Assembly (NCBI GenBank): GCA_027596945.1
Contig: JADGJH010001075.1
Coordinates: 1 to 12,113, forward strand
Reading direction: 5' to 3'
Source: Physocladia obscura
Lineage: Eukaryota > Chytridiomycota > Chytridiomycetes > Chytridiales > Chytriomycetaceae
DNA length: 12,113 bases
Shown: positions 1-12,113 of the stretch, piece by piece
How positions within the stretch are numbered: position 1 is the first letter of the stretch
How the letters are laid out: every line of letters begins with the position of its first letter
The notes under the pieces: generated by a model
What the model was told of the DNA's origin: nothing
The model's database searches: none
What the model saw: the letters and a program-made list of their open reading frames with translations, nothing else
Program-made: the position numbers and the translations under genes

Positions 1-345
1 CAGCACGCAAAATTCAAAAAATAAATCGCACGAGCGGTGTTACATCAGAAATGAAAGTTTAATGTGGCATTGCCAGAGTCATGTTTTTTGAATATTTATT
101 AGTAAATGTGATCCAGAGTTGTGTTTAAATTAATGGGCTTTCATGGATATTGAATTTAAAATAAAAGGGTTCTTGCCACTGATGGTTTGAGAGGATTTTG
201 TCGGAGGAATTGGAAATGCATGACGTGCTCGGTCAGAATATAAAATAGTCTTTTTTTTATTCGAAACTGTAATGAATGTAAGAAAAAATATAAACTTTCC
301 CGGATCAGATCACTCTATCCGTAATTTTTAATTTTTCTCAAATAA
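1..345 (+). promoter_or_regulatory. Upstream region of the left ABCC gene
   Basis: No gene is evident in these 345 bases. Two TATA-like motifs precede the ATG at 346: TATAAAAT at 239-246 and TATAAAC at 289-295. A TGACGT motif (221-226), resembling a bZIP/CRE-type site, lies upstream of the first. If transcription starts from the upstream TATA, a 19-codon upstream reading frame (272-331) would lie in the leader; from the downstream one it would not. Motif-level evidence only. Confidence 0.4.
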
Positions 346-3300
346 ATGCGTGATAAAGACAGGAAAAGTGGCGTCAAACAAAGCGGCGGCCCTTCACCGG
401 AGGCCATTCTTCCTGAAACACCCGTGCGTTTTATCCGAAAAATCGTACTGGAATGGATGACTGGATTCATGGTTCTTGCCTCAAAGAGGCCGCTCCAGCA
501 AGCGGTGCGTTTCTGGTTGTGCCCGACTATTCAGACTAACCGTCAATAAAACAACAAAGGATCTTTTTGACGTTGAGCCTGCATTCTCTGCAAACCGGCT
601 GGCGGAAGACATGACGGCACATTTGCATGAGGTGAAAAGCGCATGGGCAAAAGTGCATCCGGACATTGAATTGGACGGAACGCGAATTCCGGACGGACTT
701 CCGGCTGTTCTCAAAGCCGCACTGATCCGCCGCCTTTTTAAAACCTTCAAGCACCAGTGGTTTATAGGCGGATTTTGGGCTGCGTGCGGAGCTGGCTTTG
801 CAATTGCTTCTCCTATGATCCAGCAGCAAATTCTTACTGTTGTTACTAATGGTGACAAGAGCAGTGCGTATGGTCTCTGCGTGGCAATGTTCTTGTGCCA
901 GATTTTAGCCACTATTTGCAACAACACGCGTTCGAAAAATGAAGTCAAGGTTGCAATAGCTCTGCGTACCATCATGTATTCGACCGTCTTCAGAAAATCT
1001 CTTGTGCTTTCTCCAGCTGCGAAGCAAGAATATTCGACTGGCCGCATTGTAAATTTATTATCAACCGATGCAGGAATGCTGGAGCAGGTAACTTTTATTA
1101 TTTATTTTAATTTTAATTCGATTTTCGCAGGCAGGATATGGTATCCATTCAATTTGGCTCATTCCTATTCAAGTTATTATCATGTCTGGATTGATTATAT
1201 ACTTACTTGGCGCCGGCGGTGCTGTCGGTATTGCCATGCTCGTCGTTATATCTGCACTCCAGACTTTCGCAATGCGAGCCATCTTCAAATACGATTCAAT
1301 TGCAATGGGTCATTCTGATGCACGAGTTCGTAAAACGACCGAGATGCTCTCTGGAATGAAAATTATCAAATTATTTGCATGGGAAGATTCGTTTATTTCT
1401 GAAATCAAGAAGGAACGCAGTGAAGAGCTCCGAAACATTTTCATTGAAATTAACATTGCCGCCGCCTTTTATGGAATGATTTATGTTATTCCTGCACTTG
1501 TTTGCATTGTTGCATTTTCAGTGTATTCGGCGATGGGCAACGCCCTAACTGCAGAAATTATATTTCCTGCACTTTCACTCATTAGTTTATTAAGAGGACC
1601 AATGATGGAAATGCCAGAAAAGGTTCAAGGACTAATAGAAGCAAACGTTTCGTTTGGCAGGTTCGCAACGTTTTTGGCGTCTCCTGAGTTACAAGAGTCA
1701 AAATTGATCCAAAATACATCGAAATCATCTGAAAATGCTATTATTAGCGACCATGCATCTTTTATTTGGGATGAGTGGACTGGAATACCAGGAGCGGACG
1801 GACATGCTGGTTTTATTGCATCAGATGCGATTGAAATCGAATCCAATGAAAAACTACCGTTTTTGAAAGATTTGACTTTCAAAATTCCAAACGGCACACT
1901 ATGTGCAGTAGTCGGAGCAGTCGGCGCTGGAAAATCGAGTCTTCTGCAAGCACTGCTTGGAGAAATGAAAAACGTCAGCGGAGCAACAAACATGGTTGGA
2001 AAAGTGGCTTACGCAAGCCAGCAAGGATGGCTTCAAAACTCGACACTTCAAGGAAACGTACTGTTTGGGTCTGAAATGAACAAAGTCAGATACGATTCTG
2101 TTATAACTGCATGTGCTCTTGATAAGGATATTGAAAGCTTTCCTAATGGTGAATTAACTGAGGTTGGCGAACGAGGTGTTCAAGTGAGTTTTGTTGCTTT
2201 TAAGTTATTGTGCACAATCTAATTTCAGTTTATCGAATCGACAGCTTTCTGGAGGACAGGTTGCTCGCGTAAACTTGGCCCGGTCGATTTATTCAAATTC
2301 AGATATTTTACTTCTCGACGATCCGTTGGCTGCAGTTGACTCACATGTTTCTCGACACATTTTTGAATTTGGAATTCGCCGTGAATGTGCGGGAAAAACT
2401 GTGATTCTTGTAACCCACCAACTTAATCTTCTTCCAAATGTCGACATGATAATATACATGGAGAATGGACAAATTTCAGAGATTGGATCGTACAGTAATC
2501 TCATGCAGCAAAACCGTGGTCTTGCGAAACTCGTCTCTGAATATGGAATTTCTTCAGCTAAAAGCTCGAATTCAGCTCAAGTAGTGTTAACAAATGTGTC
2601 AATTTTGGCCGAAAAAAAGGAGCAATTCGAAATAGAAGATGTTCCTGCCCTTGCTCCAAAAACTGTTATGATGGAAGAAGAGAGAGTCGAAGGTGCAGTG
2701 ACACTTTATCATTACAAAACATACATTGGCTTATCTGGTGGTGCTTGGATGTGGATTTTAATTTCTGTCTTGGGAATCAGTATCAATCTTGCCAGAGTCA
2801 TTGGAGACTATTGGCTGATATGGTGGTCAGACGATGCTTTTAATCAATCCAATGCATGGTATATTGGAATCTATGCTGGACTTGGACTTTCTCAATCGTT
2901 TCTTACAGGTTAGTTTGCTACAGTTAATAAACAAATTAATGCTGTTTTTTTTGTTTTTTGTTTTTGTTTTTTCAGTATTACTTGCCATGACAGTGGCTCG
3001 AGTTGGTATTACAGGTGCAAGGTCATTGCACGAAAATGCTCTCGTCAACATTGGCCGTGCACCAATGTCTTTCTTTGACACGAACCCTCTTGGTCGGATT
3101 GTGAATCGATTTTCGCGAGACGTTGCCGAATGCGACAGGTGGCTTGTCATGAATCTCCGTGGCGTTCTGACAATTGGTACAAATATTCTCTGCATGCTGG
3201 GCCTAATTGCATATGCTGTGCCAACAATCTTGATTGTTGTTGCAATTGTCATTCCCATATATTATTATGTTCAGCGCTTTTACAGAAACGCGTCGCGTGA

Positions 3301-4735
3301 ATTGAAACGGTTGGAAAATCTGTCCAGATCGCCGTTTTTCGCTAATTGCGCCGAATCTTTCAATGGTTTGATCAAATTTTTAACATCTTTATCTGTTAAT
3401 GATTTTAAAAATGTTTAAAAAAGGTTTGGCTACAATTCGAGCGTTCAAAGCTTCCAAATCTTTTATTGCAGTGAATGAATCGCTTATTGACGAAGTAAAC
3501 AAACCAACTATTTTAAGATACTTTGTCAGCATCTGGGTTTCGATCAGAGTAACTTCTTTTATTTTATATTTCCTACTTTTGTTTCTCACTTTCAAACAGG
3601 CAGAAACTTTTGTTGCTTTCATCTGTCTTGCCGTATCTTTGATGGGAGTTGGATTTAACATTTCCACATATTTGTTGGGTCTAAGTATTGGATACACCTT
3701 AAACTTGGCCTTTACCATCAATATATTGATGCATATTATGTCAGTAATTTCATATTTCTATATTATTTTGAAACTATTTTAATTTTCCATATTTTCTGTT
3801 TCTTCAGGTCGGAGGGAGAAGGCCGTATGAACAGTGTCGAACGCTTGGATCACTATCACAAGAACATTCCTTCAGAAGCGCCAATGGATCTTCCGCCACC
3901 ATATGACAATTGGCCCGAAAACGGTGCCATAACATTCAAACATGCCGAAATGAGATACAGACCCGATTTACCTCCAGTTCTCAGAAACTTGAAGGTTGAA
4001 ATAAAATCTAACGAAAAAATCGGTATTGTTGGCAGAACTGGTGCAGGAAAATCGTCAATCATCAGTGCTCTATATAGATTAGTGGAGTTGAGCGCTGGTT
4101 CGATTGAAATTGACGGTGTTGATATATCAACTGTTGGTCTCAGAAAATTACGAACAAGTCTGTCAATTATTCCTCAAGCACCACTCTTGTTTCAAGGAAC
4201 GATCCGATCGAATGTGGATCCGCTAAGCAATTACAGTGACAGTGAAGTATGGACTGTTCTTGAACATGCCAGTTTAAAAGAATATGTTGCATCGCTTGAC
4301 GAAAAGCTTGAGGCCCCAGTGCAAGAGAACGGAGAAAATCTTTCGGTTGGTCAACGGCAGTTGTTGTGTTTGGCTCGCGCAATGTTGATCAAACCGAAAA
4401 TCTTGCTTATTGATGAAGCAACAGCCAGTGTTGATATCAAAACTGATACTGCAATTCAAATAGCTCTTCGTTCGTCATTTTCAAACTGCACAATTTTGTG
4501 TGTTGCTCATAGACTCTTAACGATTATTGATTACGATCGCGTGCTTGTCCTGAAAGACGGTCAAGCAATGGAATTCAACACGCCTGATGAATTGCTCAAA
4601 AATCCAGATTCACTTTTTACCGATCTTGTGAATGAGACTGGCCCTGAGATGGCCGCTTTGCTCAAAAATATGGCAGGCAAAAGATTCGGCGAGCTGAACA
4701 TTGAGCAAGTTGTCGAAGAATCTTTACGTGTTTAG
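346..4735 (+). CDS. ABC subfamily C (MRP-type) multidrug exporter, eight exons, left copy
   Basis: The inferred exons are 346-504, 560-1087, 1131-2183, 2245-2908, 2976-3365, 3424-3548, 3600-3739 and 3808-4735. They total 3987 nt, or 1328 residues, about the size of ABCC4-like 'short' MRPs with no TMD0. The start is the ATG directly after an in-frame TAA (343-345). The N-terminal region (KRPLQQA joined to DLFDVEP across intron 1) matches the MRP cytosolic lead-in. Membrane segments begin near residue 120. NBD1 has Walker A at 491-499 (K497), LSGGQ at 581-585, Walker B with D605-D606 (Asp in the catalytic Glu position, usual for ABCC NBD1) and H638. TMD2 starts near 746. NBD2 has Walker A at 1095-1103 (K1101), Q1143, LSVGQ at 1198-1202, D1222-E1223 and H1254. 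Known family members use ATP to export organic anions, glutathione or other conjugates and drugs across the plasma or vacuolar membrane; the substrate here is unknown. All introns are GT-AG. Intron 3 is taken to 2244 rather than 2228 because only that joins GERGVQ to LSGGQ in frame. Intron 7 is taken from 3740 because it restores SEGEGRMNSVER, matching the family spacing. Confidence 0.93.
3549..3599 (+). other. ABCC intron 6: 51 nt, divisible by three, no stop
   Basis: The donor GTAACT follows an AGA codon in phase 0 and the acceptor is AACAG. The intron is 17 codons long with no in-frame stop, so retention would insert 17 mostly hydrophobic residues into a membrane segment of TMD2. Removing it gives a W-to-GLS spacing close to that of ABCC4-type proteins, and keeping it makes the loop about 15 residues too long; that is the reason to call it an intron. 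The mirror copy is 8515-8565 on the minus strand. Confidence 0.75.
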
Positions 4736-4743
4736 AACTGAAG

Positions 4744-4749
4744 AATAAA
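4744..4749 (+). terminator. Candidate poly(A) signal, left ABCC gene
   Basis: This is an AATAAA hexamer 8 bases after the TAG stop. It is very close to the stop, so the second AATAAA at 4861-4866 may be the one used. Confidence 0.4.
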
Positions 4750-4925
4750 ATAACGGAGATAATTTAAATCTATAAAAAGCACGCAAAATCTAGATTCCCT
4801 GGCTGTTTTAGACAATCAAAAAAAGAAACAGTTAAAAACCAACAGCCAAGTCTCAATAATAATAAAACTAAAAAGAGCTGAAGGTATGGAAGCTCGTATG
4901 GCAGTCCATATTTTGAATTAAGTTC

Positions 4926-4944
4926 GACACTCTTTCAGGGTGTC
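4926..4944. repeat. Short hairpin in the convergent intergenic region (left)
   Basis: GACACTC and GGGTGTC form a seven-pair stem (one G-U wobble) around the loop TTTCA. It lies between the two converging 3' ends and might influence 3'-end formation. It resembles a histone 3' stem-loop only loosely, and no histone gene is present. Mirror at 7170-7188. Confidence 0.4.
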
Positions 4945-5082
4945 AATCGTAAATTTGTTTCTTATTTTAGTGGCCGAAGTAGCAGTAGTTGCACAACAAC
5001 ATTAACAGAGGTAAAATCATCAGAAAAAGTATTTGTGGAATAAAGAAACGCGACAATCAAAGTTTAAAAAATCAAATAATTT

Positions 5083-5088
5083 TTTATT
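5083..5088 (-). terminator. Candidate poly(A) signal, left WrbA gene
   Basis: This is the mirror of the hexamer at 7026-7031, read on the minus strand downstream of the stop at 5116. Confidence 0.5.
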
Positions 5089-5115
5089 AAAAGCCGTGAA
5101 TTGCTAGAAAACAGC

Positions 5116-5787
5116 TCAGTTGATAACCTTGTTCAGCAACTTTGCAAACTGCGCACCCTGATGCTTGGCAATTTCCTTTTCCTTTTCAGAAACCTGGCGC
5201 GAACCATCACCGCCTGCAATAGTCGCAGCACCCCATGGACTGCCGCCAATCAGCTCTGAATTGTCCTGCAGGTTGGGGTGGGTAAAGCCCACCGGAACAA
5301 AGTTGATTCCGTGATGAACGTAGTGGGAAATAAAGTTCTGGATGGTGGTCTCCTGGCCTCCGTGCTGCGATCCGGTGGACGTGAAAACCCCACCAAACTT
5401 GCCTGCCGAGAGTCAGCAAGTTATTGCTAAATAATTAAAGCCAATGTGTTTTGCTGATAAAAACTTGCCTGCCAAGGCTCCTGCTGCCCACAAGCCACCG
5501 GTCGCGTCCCAGAATGCTTTCACCTGCGCGGCCGGCGATCCGAAACGCGTGCCAACACCGAACAAAAACCCGTCCGCGTTGACAAGGTCTTCTGGCTTAA
5601 TCACTGGAATTTCGTCGAACGATTTGGCCCATAGTTTGTCGAGAACTTCCTTGGGCAGAGTTTCCGGCACGCGATAAAGCGTCACTTCGGCACCCTCGGC
5701 TTCGAGGCCTGCAACTACCGAGTCGGCGAGTGTTTTGATGTGGCCCCAGAACGAGTGGATGATGACGTATACTTTTGGCTTGACCAT
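5116..5787 (-). CDS. WrbA-type NAD(P)H:quinone oxidoreductase (flavodoxin-like), two exons, left copy
   Basis: Exon 1 is 5469-5787 and exon 2 is 5116-5402, split by a 66-nt GC-AG intron at 5403-5468. The product has 201 residues, the normal WrbA length. Visible signatures are the phosphate-binding loop SFWGHI (12-17, with Trp where Tyr or Phe is more usual), TRFG (80-83), TGGLW (96-100), STGSQHGGQ (115-123) and the C-terminal GGSPWGAATIAGGDGSRQ (159-176), which together form the FMN site. Known family members bind FMN and transfer two electrons from NAD(P)H to quinones, avoiding semiquinone radicals. Fungal relatives (Pst2, Ycp4, Rfs1) are linked to oxidative stress and membrane domains. No signal peptide or membrane segment is seen, so a cytosolic or peripheral membrane location is likely. 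The start has a good context (A at -3, G at +4) about 43 nt downstream of a TATA box. The gene converges on the ABCC gene, with 380 bp between stops. Confidence 0.95.
5403..5468 (-). other. GC-AG intron of WrbA (left copy), flanked by 13-bp direct repeats
   Basis: This is the mirror of the intron at 6646-6711. The direct repeats lie at 5461-5473 and 5395-5407 on the minus strand, and the inner inverted repeat is at 5451-5457 and 5413-5419. The two copies are identical, so the intron predates the arm duplication. Confidence 0.87.
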
Positions 5788-5829
5788 TTTGTGTGTTTGG
5801 AATGTATTTTTCGATGAATGCCAGCAATG

Positions 5830-5885
5830 TTTTTTATACCTCTTCCTTCAAAAAATTTTCCGGTTGGAAATCGGAAAATCATTGG
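5830..5885 (-). promoter_or_regulatory. Core promoter of the left WrbA copy (CCAAT and TATA boxes)
   Basis: This is the mirror of the right promoter: TATA box at 5830-5838, dyad at 5856-5878 and CCAAT box at 5881-5885, all read on the minus strand. The core elements lie fully inside the arm, so both WrbA copies keep the same core promoter. Only DNA more than 158 bp upstream of the ATG differs. Confidence 0.65.
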
Positions 5886-5945
5886 TTGCGCAATAGAATC
5901 AACCTGGCGTCAAGGCATCAATTGTCAACTCTTCCCCCTTGAAAT

Positions 5946-6168
5946 GGCATTCTCATCCGCTTTTATTTCGTTGAAGATATCCGAAATAATTTCCTAAACA
6001 CAAAAAAAAAAAGTAAAGCAGCGAGATTTATTGAATAAAAATCTATTTCTACGAAACAGCTAGAGAACTATGAATATATTCGTTTGTCACCAATGATGAA
6101 AATAGTGCCAATATATAAAAATGATAGGTATATTGTTGAAAAATGTATTTGAATAAACAGCTACATGT
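5946..6168. other. Unpaired spacer between the palindrome arms
   Basis: This 223-base AT-rich segment is the only single-copy DNA in the window. I see no convincing gene in it. It holds an A tract near 6002-6012 and a short inverted repeat (TTATTTCG at 5963-5970, CGAAATAA at 5982-5989) centred on GATATC. On the plus strand there are two CCAAT motifs (6090-6094, 6108-6112) and a TATATAAAA stretch from about 6112. These point towards the right WrbA copy, so the spacer may be part of the native upstream region of that copy. I saw no equivalent elements pointing to the left copy. Confidence 0.85.
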
Positions 6169-6228
6169 ATTTCAAGGGGGAAGAGTTGACAATTGATGCC
6201 TTGACGCCAGGTTGATTCTATTGCGCAA

Positions 6229-6284
6229 CCAATGATTTTCCGATTTCCAACCGGAAAATTTTTTGAAGGAAGAGGTATAAAAAA
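6229..6284 (+). promoter_or_regulatory. Core promoter of the right WrbA copy (CCAAT and TATA boxes)
   Basis: A CCAAT box lies at 6229-6233 and a strong TATA box (TATAAAAAA) at 6276-6284, 43 nt before the ATG at 6327. Spacing from the TATA box predicts a transcription start about 30 nt downstream and a 5' leader of only some 20 nt with no upstream ATG. Between the two boxes is a dyad, TTTTCCG (6236-6242) and CGGAAAA (6252-6258) with a 9-nt centre, a candidate binding site for a dimeric regulator. Assignments rest on motif and position only. Confidence 0.65.
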
Positions 6285-6326
6285 CATTGCTGGCATTCAT
6301 CGAAAAATACATTCCAAACACACAAA

Positions 6327-6998
6327 ATGGTCAAGCCAAAAGTATACGTCATCATCCACTCGTTCTGGGGCCACATCAAAACACTCGCCGACTCGGTAGT
6401 TGCAGGCCTCGAAGCCGAGGGTGCCGAAGTGACGCTTTATCGCGTGCCGGAAACTCTGCCCAAGGAAGTTCTCGACAAACTATGGGCCAAATCGTTCGAC
6501 GAAATTCCAGTGATTAAGCCAGAAGACCTTGTCAACGCGGACGGGTTTTTGTTCGGTGTTGGCACGCGTTTCGGATCGCCGGCCGCGCAGGTGAAAGCAT
6601 TCTGGGACGCGACCGGTGGCTTGTGGGCAGCAGGAGCCTTGGCAGGCAAGTTTTTATCAGCAAAACACATTGGCTTTAATTATTTAGCAATAACTTGCTG
6701 ACTCTCGGCAGGCAAGTTTGGTGGGGTTTTCACGTCCACCGGATCGCAGCACGGAGGCCAGGAGACCACCATCCAGAACTTTATTTCCCACTACGTTCAT
6801 CACGGAATCAACTTTGTTCCGGTGGGCTTTACCCACCCCAACCTGCAGGACAATTCAGAGCTGATTGGCGGCAGTCCATGGGGTGCTGCGACTATTGCAG
6901 GCGGTGATGGTTCGCGCCAGGTTTCTGAAAAGGAAAAGGAAATTGCCAAGCATCAGGGTGCGCAGTTTGCAAAGTTGCTGAACAAGGTTATCAACTGA
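6327..6998 (+). CDS. WrbA-type NAD(P)H:quinone oxidoreductase (flavodoxin-like), two exons, right copy
   Basis: This is a mirror copy identical to the gene at 5116-5787. Exon 1 is 6327-6645 (106 codons plus one base) and exon 2 is 6712-6998, ending in TGA. The split codon 107 rebuilds a Gly within ALAGKFGG, a well-conserved WrbA stretch, which fixes the splice sites. Without splicing, translation stops at TGA 6699-6701 inside the intron and loses the STGSQHGGQ and GGDGSRQ parts of the FMN pocket, so an unspliced message should be non-functional. The shared upstream DNA extends 158 bp before the ATG. Beyond that, this copy has its own upstream DNA in the spacer, with extra CCAAT and TATA-like motifs, so it could be expressed differently from the left copy. 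Confidence 0.95.
6646..6711 (+). other. GC-AG intron of WrbA (right copy), flanked by 13-bp direct repeats
   Basis: The reading frame fixes this intron as starting GCAAGT and ending CGGCAG. The sequence GGCAGGCAAGTTT occurs at both edges (6641-6653 and 6707-6719). No register within this repeat gives GT-AG, and GC-AG (AG before the donor, GCAAGT) is the only recognisable spliceosomal choice. Inside, TCAGCAA (6657-6663) and TTGCTGA (6695-6701) form a 7-bp inverted repeat close to the two direct repeats. A CTGAC branch-site candidate lies at 6698-6702. Confidence 0.88.
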
Positions 6999-7025
6999 GC
7001 TGTTTTCTAGCAATTCACGGCTTTT

Positions 7026-7031
7026 AATAAA
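7026..7031 (+). terminator. Candidate poly(A) signal, right WrbA gene
   Basis: This is an AATAAA hexamer 27 bases after the TGA stop, followed by T-rich sequence, as expected for a short 3' UTR. Confidence 0.5.
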
Positions 7032-7364
7032 AAATTATTTGATTTTTTAAACTTTGATTGTCGCGTTTCTTTATTCCACAAATACTTTTTCTGATGATTT
7101 TACCTCTGTTAATGTTGTTGTGCAACTACTGCTACTTCGGCCACTAAAATAAGAAACAAATTTACGATTGACACCCTGAAAGAGTGTCGAACTTAATTCA
7201 AAATATGGACTGCCATACGAGCTTCCATACCTTCAGCTCTTTTTAGTTTTATTATTATTGAGACTTGGCTGTTGGTTTTTAACTGTTTCTTTTTTTGATT
7301 GTCTAAAACAGCCAGGGAATCTAGATTTTGCGTGCTTTTTATAGATTTAAATTATCTCCGTTAT

Positions 7365-7370
7365 TTTATT
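7365..7370 (-). terminator. Candidate poly(A) signal, right ABCC gene
   Basis: This is the mirror of the hexamer at 4744-4749. A second AATAAA lies further downstream at 7248-7253 on the minus strand. Confidence 0.4.
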
Positions 7371-7378
7371 CTTCAGTT

Positions 7379-10300
7379 CTAAACACGTAAAGATTCTTCG
7401 ACAACTTGCTCAATGTTCAGCTCGCCGAATCTTTTGCCTGCCATATTTTTGAGCAAAGCGGCCATCTCAGGGCCAGTCTCATTCACAAGATCGGTAAAAA
7501 GTGAATCTGGATTTTTGAGCAATTCATCAGGCGTGTTGAATTCCATTGCTTGACCGTCTTTCAGGACAAGCACGCGATCGTAATCAATAATCGTTAAGAG
7601 TCTATGAGCAACACACAAAATTGTGCAGTTTGAAAATGACGAACGAAGAGCTATTTGAATTGCAGTATCAGTTTTGATATCAACACTGGCTGTTGCTTCA
7701 TCAATAAGCAAGATTTTCGGTTTGATCAACATTGCGCGAGCCAAACACAACAACTGCCGTTGACCAACCGAAAGATTTTCTCCGTTCTCTTGCACTGGGG
7801 CCTCAAGCTTTTCGTCAAGCGATGCAACATATTCTTTTAAACTGGCATGTTCAAGAACAGTCCATACTTCACTGTCACTGTAATTGCTTAGCGGATCCAC
7901 ATTCGATCGGATCGTTCCTTGAAACAAGAGTGGTGCTTGAGGAATAATTGACAGACTTGTTCGTAATTTTCTGAGACCAACAGTTGATATATCAACACCG
8001 TCAATTTCAATCGAACCAGCGCTCAACTCCACTAATCTATATAGAGCACTGATGATTGACGATTTTCCTGCACCAGTTCTGCCAACAATACCGATTTTTT
8101 CGTTAGATTTTATTTCAACCTTCAAGTTTCTGAGAACTGGAGGTAAATCGGGTCTGTATCTCATTTCGGCATGTTTGAATGTTATGGCACCGTTTTCGGG
8201 CCAATTGTCATATGGTGGCGGAAGATCCATTGGCGCTTCTGAAGGAATGTTCTTGTGATAGTGATCCAAGCGTTCGACACTGTTCATACGGCCTTCTCCC
8301 TCCGACCTGAAGAAACAGAAAATATGGAAAATTAAAATAGTTTCAAAATAATATAGAAATATGAAATTACTGACATAATATGCATCAATATATTGATGGT
8401 AAAGGCCAAGTTTAAGGTGTATCCAATACTTAGACCCAACAAATATGTGGAAATGTTAAATCCAACTCCCATCAAAGATACGGCAAGACAGATGAAAGCA
8501 ACAAAAGTTTCTGCCTGTTTGAAAGTGAGAAACAAAAGTAGGAAATATAAAATAAAAGAAGTTACTCTGATCGAAACCCAGATGCTGACAAAGTATCTTA
8601 AAATAGTTGGTTTGTTTACTTCGTCAATAAGCGATTCATTCACTGCAATAAAAGATTTGGAAGCTTTGAACGCTCGAATTGTAGCCAAACCTTTTTTAAA
8701 CATTTTTAAAATCATTAACAGATAAAGATGTTAAAAATTTGATCAAACCATTGAAAGATTCGGCGCAATTAGCGAAAAACGGCGATCTGGACAGATTTTC
8801 CAACCGTTTCAATTCACGCGACGCGTTTCTGTAAAAGCGCTGAACATAATAATATATGGGAATGACAATTGCAACAACAATCAAGATTGTTGGCACAGCA
8901 TATGCAATTAGGCCCAGCATGCAGAGAATATTTGTACCAATTGTCAGAACGCCACGGAGATTCATGACAAGCCACCTGTCGCATTCGGCAACGTCTCGCG
9001 AAAATCGATTCACAATCCGACCAAGAGGGTTCGTGTCAAAGAAAGACATTGGTGCACGGCCAATGTTGACGAGAGCATTTTCGTGCAATGACCTTGCACC
9101 TGTAATACCAACTCGAGCCACTGTCATGGCAAGTAATACTGAAAAAACAAAAACAAAAAACAAAAAAAACAGCATTAATTTGTTTATTAACTGTAGCAAA
9201 CTAACCTGTAAGAAACGATTGAGAAAGTCCAAGTCCAGCATAGATTCCAATATACCATGCATTGGATTGATTAAAAGCATCGTCTGACCACCATATCAGC
9301 CAATAGTCTCCAATGACTCTGGCAAGATTGATACTGATTCCCAAGACAGAAATTAAAATCCACATCCAAGCACCACCAGATAAGCCAATGTATGTTTTGT
9401 AATGATAAAGTGTCACTGCACCTTCGACTCTCTCTTCTTCCATCATAACAGTTTTTGGAGCAAGGGCAGGAACATCTTCTATTTCGAATTGCTCCTTTTT
9501 TTCGGCCAAAATTGACACATTTGTTAACACTACTTGAGCTGAATTCGAGCTTTTAGCTGAAGAAATTCCATATTCAGAGACGAGTTTCGCAAGACCACGG
9601 TTTTGCTGCATGAGATTACTGTACGATCCAATCTCTGAAATTTGTCCATTCTCCATGTATATTATCATGTCGACATTTGGAAGAAGATTAAGTTGGTGGG
9701 TTACAAGAATCACAGTTTTTCCCGCACATTCACGGCGAATTCCAAATTCAAAAATGTGTCGAGAAACATGTGAGTCAACTGCAGCCAACGGATCGTCGAG
9801 AAGTAAAATATCTGAATTTGAATAAATCGACCGGGCCAAGTTTACGCGAGCAACCTGTCCTCCAGAAAGCTGTCGATTCGATAAACTGAAATTAGATTGT
9901 GCACAATAACTTAAAAGCAACAAAACTCACTTGAACACCTCGTTCGCCAACCTCAGTTAATTCACCATTAGGAAAGCTTTCAATATCCTTATCAAGAGCA
10001 CATGCAGTTATAACAGAATCGTATCTGACTTTGTTCATTTCAGACCCAAACAGTACGTTTCCTTGAAGTGTCGAGTTTTGAAGCCATCCTTGCTGGCTTG
10101 CGTAAGCCACTTTTCCAACCATGTTTGTTGCTCCGCTGACGTTTTTCATTTCTCCAAGCAGTGCTTGCAGAAGACTCGATTTTCCAGCGCCGACTGCTCC
10201 GACTACTGCACATAGTGTGCCGTTTGGAATTTTGAAAGTCAAATCTTTCAAAAACGGTAGTTTTTCATTGGATTCGATTTCAATCGCATCTGATGCAATA

Positions 10301-11768
10301 AAACCAGCATGTCCGTCCGCTCCTGGTATTCCAGTCCACTCATCCCAAATAAAAGATGCATGGTCGCTAATAATAGCATTTTCAGATGATTTCGATGTAT
10401 TTTGGATCAATTTTGACTCTTGTAACTCAGGAGACGCCAAAAACGTTGCGAACCTGCCAAACGAAACGTTTGCTTCTATTAGTCCTTGAACCTTTTCTGG
10501 CATTTCCATCATTGGTCCTCTTAATAAACTAATGAGTGAAAGTGCAGGAAATATAATTTCTGCAGTTAGGGCGTTGCCCATCGCCGAATACACTGAAAAT
10601 GCAACAATGCAAACAAGTGCAGGAATAACATAAATCATTCCATAAAAGGCGGCGGCAATGTTAATTTCAATGAAAATGTTTCGGAGCTCTTCACTGCGTT
10701 CCTTCTTGATTTCAGAAATAAACGAATCTTCCCATGCAAATAATTTGATAATTTTCATTCCAGAGAGCATCTCGGTCGTTTTACGAACTCGTGCATCAGA
10801 ATGACCCATTGCAATTGAATCGTATTTGAAGATGGCTCGCATTGCGAAAGTCTGGAGTGCAGATATAACGACGAGCATGGCAATACCGACAGCACCGCCG
10901 GCGCCAAGTAAGTATATAATCAATCCAGACATGATAATAACTTGAATAGGAATGAGCCAAATTGAATGGATACCATATCCTGCCTGCGAAAATCGAATTA
11001 AAATTAAAATAAATAATAAAAGTTACCTGCTCCAGCATTCCTGCATCGGTTGATAATAAATTTACAATGCGGCCAGTCGAATATTCTTGCTTCGCAGCTG
11101 GAGAAAGCACAAGAGATTTTCTGAAGACGGTCGAATACATGATGGTACGCAGAGCTATTGCAACCTTGACTTCATTTTTCGAACGCGTGTTGTTGCAAAT
11201 AGTGGCTAAAATCTGGCACAAGAACATTGCCACGCAGAGACCATACGCACTGCTCTTGTCACCATTAGTAACAACAGTAAGAATTTGCTGCTGGATCATA
11301 GGAGAAGCAATTGCAAAGCCAGCTCCGCACGCAGCCCAAAATCCGCCTATAAACCACTGGTGCTTGAAGGTTTTAAAAAGGCGGCGGATCAGTGCGGCTT
11401 TGAGAACAGCCGGAAGTCCGTCCGGAATTCGCGTTCCGTCCAATTCAATGTCCGGATGCACTTTTGCCCATGCGCTTTTCACCTCATGCAAATGTGCCGT
11501 CATGTCTTCCGCCAGCCGGTTTGCAGAGAATGCAGGCTCAACGTCAAAAAGATCCTTTGTTGTTTTATTGACGGTTAGTCTGAATAGTCGGGCACAACCA
11601 GAAACGCACCGCTTGCTGGAGCGGCCTCTTTGAGGCAAGAACCATGAATCCAGTCATCCATTCCAGTACGATTTTTCGGATAAAACGCACGGGTGTTTCA
11701 GGAAGAATGGCCTCCGGTGAAGGGCCGCCGCTTTGTTTGACGCCACTTTTCCTGTCTTTATCACGCAT
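7379..11768 (-). CDS. ABC subfamily C (MRP-type) multidrug exporter, eight exons, right copy
   Basis: This is a base-identical mirror of the gene at 346-4735. In transcript order the exons are 11610-11768, 11027-11554, 9931-10983, 9206-9869, 8749-9138, 8566-8690, 8375-8514 and 7379-8306. It encodes the same 1328-residue exporter with both transmembrane domains and both nucleotide-binding domains intact: degenerate NBD1 with DD after Walker B, canonical NBD2 with DE. I found no stop, frameshift or splice-site change, so if both copies exist neither is decaying. Transcription runs inward from the right window end towards the WrbA copy at 6327-6998. Copy-specific regulation could come only from sequence beyond the window. 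Confidence 0.92.
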
Positions 11769-12113
11769 TTATTTGAGAAAAATTAAAAATTACGGATAGA
11801 GTGATCTGATCCGGGAAAGTTTATATTTTTTCTTACATTCATTACAGTTTCGAATAAAAAAAAGACTATTTTATATTCTGACCGAGCACGTCATGCATTT
11901 CCAATTCCTCCGACAAAATCCTCTCAAACCATCAGTGGCAAGAACCCTTTTATTTTAAATTCAATATCCATGAAAGCCCATTAATTTAAACACAACTCTG
12001 GATCACATTTACTAATAAATATTCAAAAAACATGACTCTGGCAATGCCACATTAAACTTTCATTTCTGATGTAACACCGCTCGTGCGATTTATTTTTTGA
12101 ATTTTGCGTGCTG
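11769..12113 (-). promoter_or_regulatory. Upstream region of the right ABCC gene
   Basis: This is an exact reverse complement of 1-345. The TATA-like motifs are at 11868-11875 and 11819-11825 and the TGACGT motif at 11888-11893, read on the minus strand. It holds no separate gene. Confidence 0.4.

Follow-up and report, generated by a model that had tools for sequence, protein, structure and literature searches.

An end-to-end palindromic contig with ABCC transporter and WrbA-type quinone oxidoreductase genes in the assembly of the chytrid Physocladia obscura: a possible fold-back inverted duplication

Does a contig that reads as its own reverse complement from one end to the other represent two inverted copies of a locus in the genome, or a single locus whose second copy arose during amplification or assembly? 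The question is raised by contig C968 of the assembly of Physocladia obscura (Chytridiomycota, Chytridiales, Chytriomycetaceae), the whole of which (12,113 bp) forms the window analyzed here. An earlier note on this DNA had described a palindrome with 5,945-bp arms and no mismatch around a 223-bp spacer, and setting the window against its reverse complement, without any offset, showed this description to be exact for the assembly. Only 149 positions differ, running from 5946 to 6168, and the left arm (1..5945, + strand) and the right arm (6169..12113, − strand) are exact reverse complements without mismatch, gap or N, an identity over 5,945 bp that far exceeds chance expectation. As the same note had stated, the arms are alike through coding, intronic and intergenic DNA, with full complementarity in the assembly. 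Between them lies the unpaired spacer (5946..6168, 223 bp, 28% GC). The palindrome reaches both contig ends, and within the contig no unique flanking DNA is attached to either arm.

Each arm carries two complete genes, in agreement with the earlier note: an ABC transporter gene that stays open through its spliced exons, and a quinone oxidoreductase gene in frame with one intron, both mirrored in the other arm. Based on its domains and spliced frame, the left copy of the first gene (346..4735, + strand) was modeled with 8 exons (346-504, 560-1087, 1131-2183, 2245-2908, 2976-3365, 3424-3548, 3600-3739, and 3808-4735) that encode an ABCC (MRP-like) transporter of 1328 aa; the right copy (7379..11768, − strand) is its mirror image. 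PF00664 and PF00005 were found on successive reading frames that join in one spliced frame, so that a single chain holds the paired membrane domains and paired nucleotide-binding domains that define the ABCC arrangement. A first model without a 51-nt intron was open over 4,038 nt (1345 aa), but 17 of these residues are absent from the database model P0121 (1328 aa) and likewise from its relatives P0122 and P0125; therefore, a further intron is the better reading of 3549-3599. By domain content and family scores the product resembles ABCC (MRP) transporters; unlike members of the MRP equivalog family TIGR00957, the Physocladia protein stays under the cut-off of that profile (901.8 vs. 1470 bits for P0121), and its database record is named "Multidrug resistance-associated protein 1". 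Transporter matches outside C968 were 25-53% identical among the 35 of 173 candidates scored (a lower bound), and a second, diverged copy was not seen among these 35.

The second gene (left copy 5116..5787, − strand, 201 aa; right copy 6327..6998, + strand, as a mirror image) was assigned to the WrbA-type NAD(P)H:quinone oxidoreductases by its domains, gene model and family profile. PF03358 and PF00258 are both present, and the database model P0001 scores 191.9 bits against the TIGR01755 cut-off of 132.5 bits, in line with the likeness to enzymes of this family; the P. obscura database record for the quinone reductase is HK100_000384. Our model contains a 66-nt GC-AG intron (5403-5468; mirror 6646-6711) that P0001 (191 aa) avoids at the loss of ten conserved residues. 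Since the counterpart of this ten-residue segment is present both in P0002, the product of a paralogue on contig C204, and in the partial protein P0024, the model with the GC-AG intron is the better one. The WrbA and ABCC genes are convergent within each arm, and between the divergent WrbA start codons lies a region of 539 bp (5788..6326), made up of the spacer and, to its left and right, 158 bp of arm apiece; this region presumably holds the WrbA promoters. Two gene doses are possible, and the likely effect of the duplication, if real, would be a double dose of exporter and quinone reductase, with the two WrbA genes reading outward from start codons 539 bp apart. RNA genes were not found in the window at the gathering threshold.

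The copy number of these sequences in the assembly was checked in 1,222 contigs (21,758,710 bases; shortest contig 10,004 bp). Among these contigs of at least 10,004 bp the spacer matched once, and a query of 1,500 bp taken at the arm end hit the two arms and nothing else; inverted copies thus flank a once-present spacer, one of the features of a fold-back duplication, as far as the assembly goes. The first and last 24 bases of the spacer and the inner 22 bases of the arm had no exact match outside C968 in contigs of at least 10,004 bp, and because these words are confined to C968, no rival continuation is visible among them. The terminal 27-mer of the contig likewise had no exact match in any other contig of that length. 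The arm has a CpG observed/expected of 1.02, the median over 20 contigs being 0.95, and the spacer is unremarkable in its own fold (z-score −0.04). Two other origins were rejected. A hairpin adapter that went unnoticed, or a template-complement read, does not fit because 149 of the 223 middle positions differ from their reverse complement and there is no unusual fold; a telomere end does not fit because there is no telomere-like tandem array and the hexamer TTAGGG occurs once per strand.

A fork at the outer end of the arm should leave the terminal bases in two neighboring contigs. Contigs below 10,004 bp do exist, given that P0024 sits on one of 6,870 bases, and extrapolation of an exponential curve fitted to the ranks and lengths of ten contigs gives approximately 4,000 contigs in all with about 69% of them under 10 kb. 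By the same extrapolation, the chance that both neighbors fall below 10,004 bp is around 0.48. With nearly even odds that neither neighbor would be present, the absent terminal 27-mer is weak evidence. Comparable inverted repeats were found in 0 of 40 other contigs, picked by length and not at random from 1,221. They comprised 20 neighboring contigs of about 12 kb, of which the first 10 kb were checked at a repeat size of ~60 bp (two start with ~2 kb of N), and the 20 shortest contigs, of which the central 1,201 bp were checked at a repeat size of ~33 bp. Applied to the center of the window, the central-region test detected the palindrome at once. The result of 0 of 40 bounds the frequency of palindromes at only ~7%.

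What a graph assembler makes of such structures was modeled with a toy de Bruijn graph that used k = 77 and ignored read depth, and in which the arm and spacer of the window were given random flanks and extension proceeded outward from the spacer. From a real palindrome with two different flanks the extension recovered the 12,113-bp contig and its 5,945-bp arms, and forks stopped it at both ends. Joining the arms head to head in a circle, by means of a second junction, led to the same 12,113-bp contig, and a fold-back chimera with coverage ending at the arm also gave 12,113 bp, with dead-end stops. With a long flank covered, the chimera gave 24,113 bp, and where the locus had its true continuation beside the fold-back copy, extension stopped at the spacer and no right arm was built. 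Arms differing by 0.5% gave only 415 bp, the path halting 96 bp from the spacer. Real assemblers partly smooth the bubbles that arise from small differences between arms; therefore, a clean arm does not exclude such differences.

The P. obscura genome was presumably assembled from short reads. If it was assembled as a short-read graph, the second arm is a repeat pass over one graph edge, and since identical arms would be one edge walked twice, the lack of mismatches is no measure of two arms: "no mismatch" describes the assembly and not two independently read copies. In the model, end-to-end symmetry is the output of graph assembly for several structures in which the two ends of the spacer reach one arm edge. 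The shape of the contig, judged by the same simulations, makes it less probable that a chimera coexisted with the true continuation, whereas a dominant chimera would be compatible with it. The earlier note had concluded from the missing mismatches that the palindrome, if real, is either very young or actively homogenised. A young inverted duplication does reproduce the contig in the toy graph, but neither alternative follows from the identity of the arms; the observation was correct and its reading as homogenisation over-interpreted. Should the structure be an artefact, such an end-to-end palindromic contig is a warning against reading gene conversion into a second arm that graph assembly has copied from the first.

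We favor a fold-back inverted duplication over an amplification or assembly artefact, giving an about even chance to the proposition that one ABCC-WrbA pair was duplicated by genuine fold-back in the sequenced isolate and that both arms collapsed in the assembly. A break near the WrbA promoter would have produced a free end, the resected strand of which may have folded back and paired through a short inverted match, the 223-bp loop becoming the spacer. Copying back through 5.9 kb would then have generated the second arm, and the copy would have terminated by joining other DNA, leaving the two arms with different outer flanks. An assembler starting from the single-copy spacer would walk the arm edge twice and halt where the flanks diverge, resulting in the arm-spacer-arm order that the toy graph reproduced.

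Several points argue for such a fold-back duplication. In the toy graph the exact contig arose from a palindrome with two different flanks and not from a locus with its true continuation beside a fold-back copy, and no rival continuation is visible among contigs of at least 10,004 bp. In addition, the arms consist of intact genes and their CpG content is normal, the asymmetric spacer is unlike what an overlooked hairpin adapter or a template-complement read would leave, and the transporter family is locally duplicated in other chytrids. Against it stand the lack of unique DNA at either side, the terminal 27-mer found in no other contig of at least 10,004 bp (by itself a weak objection), a spacer shorter than all 21 in a human set, and the family members of Rhizoclosmatium globosum, which lie on contigs of differing length.

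The human set, from which the fold-back model is taken, consists of fold-back inverted duplications (PMC3907307), which had a spacer at all 21 sequenced disomy-inversion junctions (766-70,466 bp, median 3,428) and inverted microhomology of 2-8 bp at 13 of the 21. The likeness to the P. obscura contig lies in the inverted copies around a once-present spacer. The differences are a spacer of at least 766 bp in the human cases compared with 223 bp in Physocladia, duplications that are megabases long in the table rows of PMC3907307 considered here compared with 5.9 kb, and the fact that copy number and inverted microhomology were shown for the human cases, while Physocladia is known from its assembly. 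In the latter, inverted microhomology at the junction is not visible, as the unduplicated sequence would be needed. A fungal parallel is Candida albicans, where copy number is gained at inverted sequences via recombination or a fold-back-like step (PMC7371428); however, the amplified region there was flanked by pre-existing long inverted repeats and drug selection was shown, neither of which is known for Physocladia. If real, the P. obscura locus would be an inverted duplication of compact size in an early-diverging fungus, its spacer being very short, and would allow fold-back repair and the dosage of an exporter to be tested. A thin literature search found no description of a compact inverted duplication in a chytrid.

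Among the best 120 matches listed, two members of the transporter family occur on equally long contigs in Siphonaria sp. JEL0065, Phlyctochytrium planicorne, and Chytridium lagenaria, while the two of R. globosum lie on contigs of differing length. The Siphonaria pair P0122/P0125 (HDU68_006517/HDU68_006516) has adjacent locus tags. In a tree of 15 proteins its two copies are not sisters, one of them grouping with Obelidium (100/100). Trees of protein parts placed Siphonaria copy b with Obelidium for the N-terminal part (100/100), whereas for the C-terminal part the two Siphonaria copies were sisters (100/98); for P. planicorne and C. lagenaria the two trees agree. Relatives thus show local duplication of this transporter family in chytrids, not the reality of the Physocladia palindrome. 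The two Siphonaria proteins are 57-88% alike per 100 residues over their first 1,000 aligned residues, and at the C-terminal end they share 268 consecutive identical aligned residues, gap columns uncounted and copy b being without a short segment there. From the sequences, this would fit conversion between neighbors at the C-terminal end or a collapse in the Siphonaria assembly.

The main competitor of a fold-back duplication in the genome is a fold-back made in the tube, either a chimera produced by template switching during whole-genome amplification or the path that an assembler took through chimeric reads; it is a serious possibility, if a little short of an even chance. One ABCC-WrbA locus would then be real, the second arm copied in vitro, and the contig would stop where coverage ends, an arrangement from which the toy graph gave the same 12,113-bp contig. 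The coincidence of palindrome ends and contig ends is in line with this, as is the terminal 27-mer absent from all other contigs of at least 10,004 bp. Inverted-repeat chimeras do arise in whole-genome amplification, by copying back as in the likeness considered here (PMC6218980, PMC13265396), and chimeras often exceed one third of mitochondrial reads after such amplification (PMC13265396). They are, however, mainly a long-read problem with few reads in sheared paired-end libraries (PMC6218980), whereas in Physocladia the junction won the assembly. Because extension in the toy graph gets no further than the spacer when the true continuation exists as well, an early and dominant chimera would need to have displaced the real sequence. 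A heavily amplified library would also be expected to hold more palindromes than the 0 of 40 in our small sample. Furthermore, amplification is not expected for P. obscura, which we take to be a culturable saprobe, the sequenced strain presumably being JEL0513.

A more ambitious proposal, in which an exporter and quinone reductase unit forms a chytrid head-to-head amplicon or palindrome that is selected for dosage and homogenised by conversion, as a fungal counterpart of the Leishmania amplicons, is very improbable. So is a plain amplicon, with many head-to-head copies of the arm on a circular or linear, chromosomal or extrachromosomal molecule kept by dosage selection. MRPA, one of the amplified genes of Leishmania, is an ABCC exporter. 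Linear amplicons with inverted duplications, in which a gene-bearing segment is doubled much as in C968, occur in drug-selected Leishmania according to PMC4256157, which also shows amplification and its MRE11 dependence, while Physocladia is known from its assembly. A circular head-to-head molecule gave the same contig in the toy graph, and a terminal 27-mer absent elsewhere in contigs of at least 10,004 bp would suit a molecule without chromosomal flanks; on the other hand, a second junction was not found and no selection on the isolate is known. The palindromes of the mammalian Y chromosome are kept identical by arm-to-arm gene conversion. An old palindrome maintained in this way is hardly credible here, even though introns and intergenic DNA are identical between the arms in the assembly and the same-family duplicates of Siphonaria suggest homogenisation, as arm identity is not independently measured in the assembly and evidence of age would need a related genome.

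The WrbA paralogue on contig C204 shares 82% DNA identity with the gene of the window. It lies at L004 1501-2302 (G000:C204:21244-22045), aligned with 5108-5913 of the window, and homology ends at 5913. Reading the ancestral side of the spacer from this paralogue was tried and dropped, as the alignment scores beyond 5913 say nothing: the spacer scored 26 against C204 in one direction, a value reached by 11 of 200 shuffles, and 21 in the opposite direction, a value reached by 125 of 200. Of the 49 CpG in the window copy, 36 read CA or TG in C204 and 8 are kept, while of the 12 CpG that the C204 copy has, the window keeps 8. CpG observed/expected is 0.32 across the 3.8-kb C204 locus vs. 1.02 in the arm. 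The loss in C204 has the look of a duplicate decaying through a methylation-linked process, much as in repeat-induced point mutation. Across 20 contigs (L012-L031, windows with at least 50 N excluded), 24 of 175 1-kb windows fall below 0.4 CpG observed/expected and 123 lie at 0.8-1.5, and the genome may contain CpG-poor compartments.
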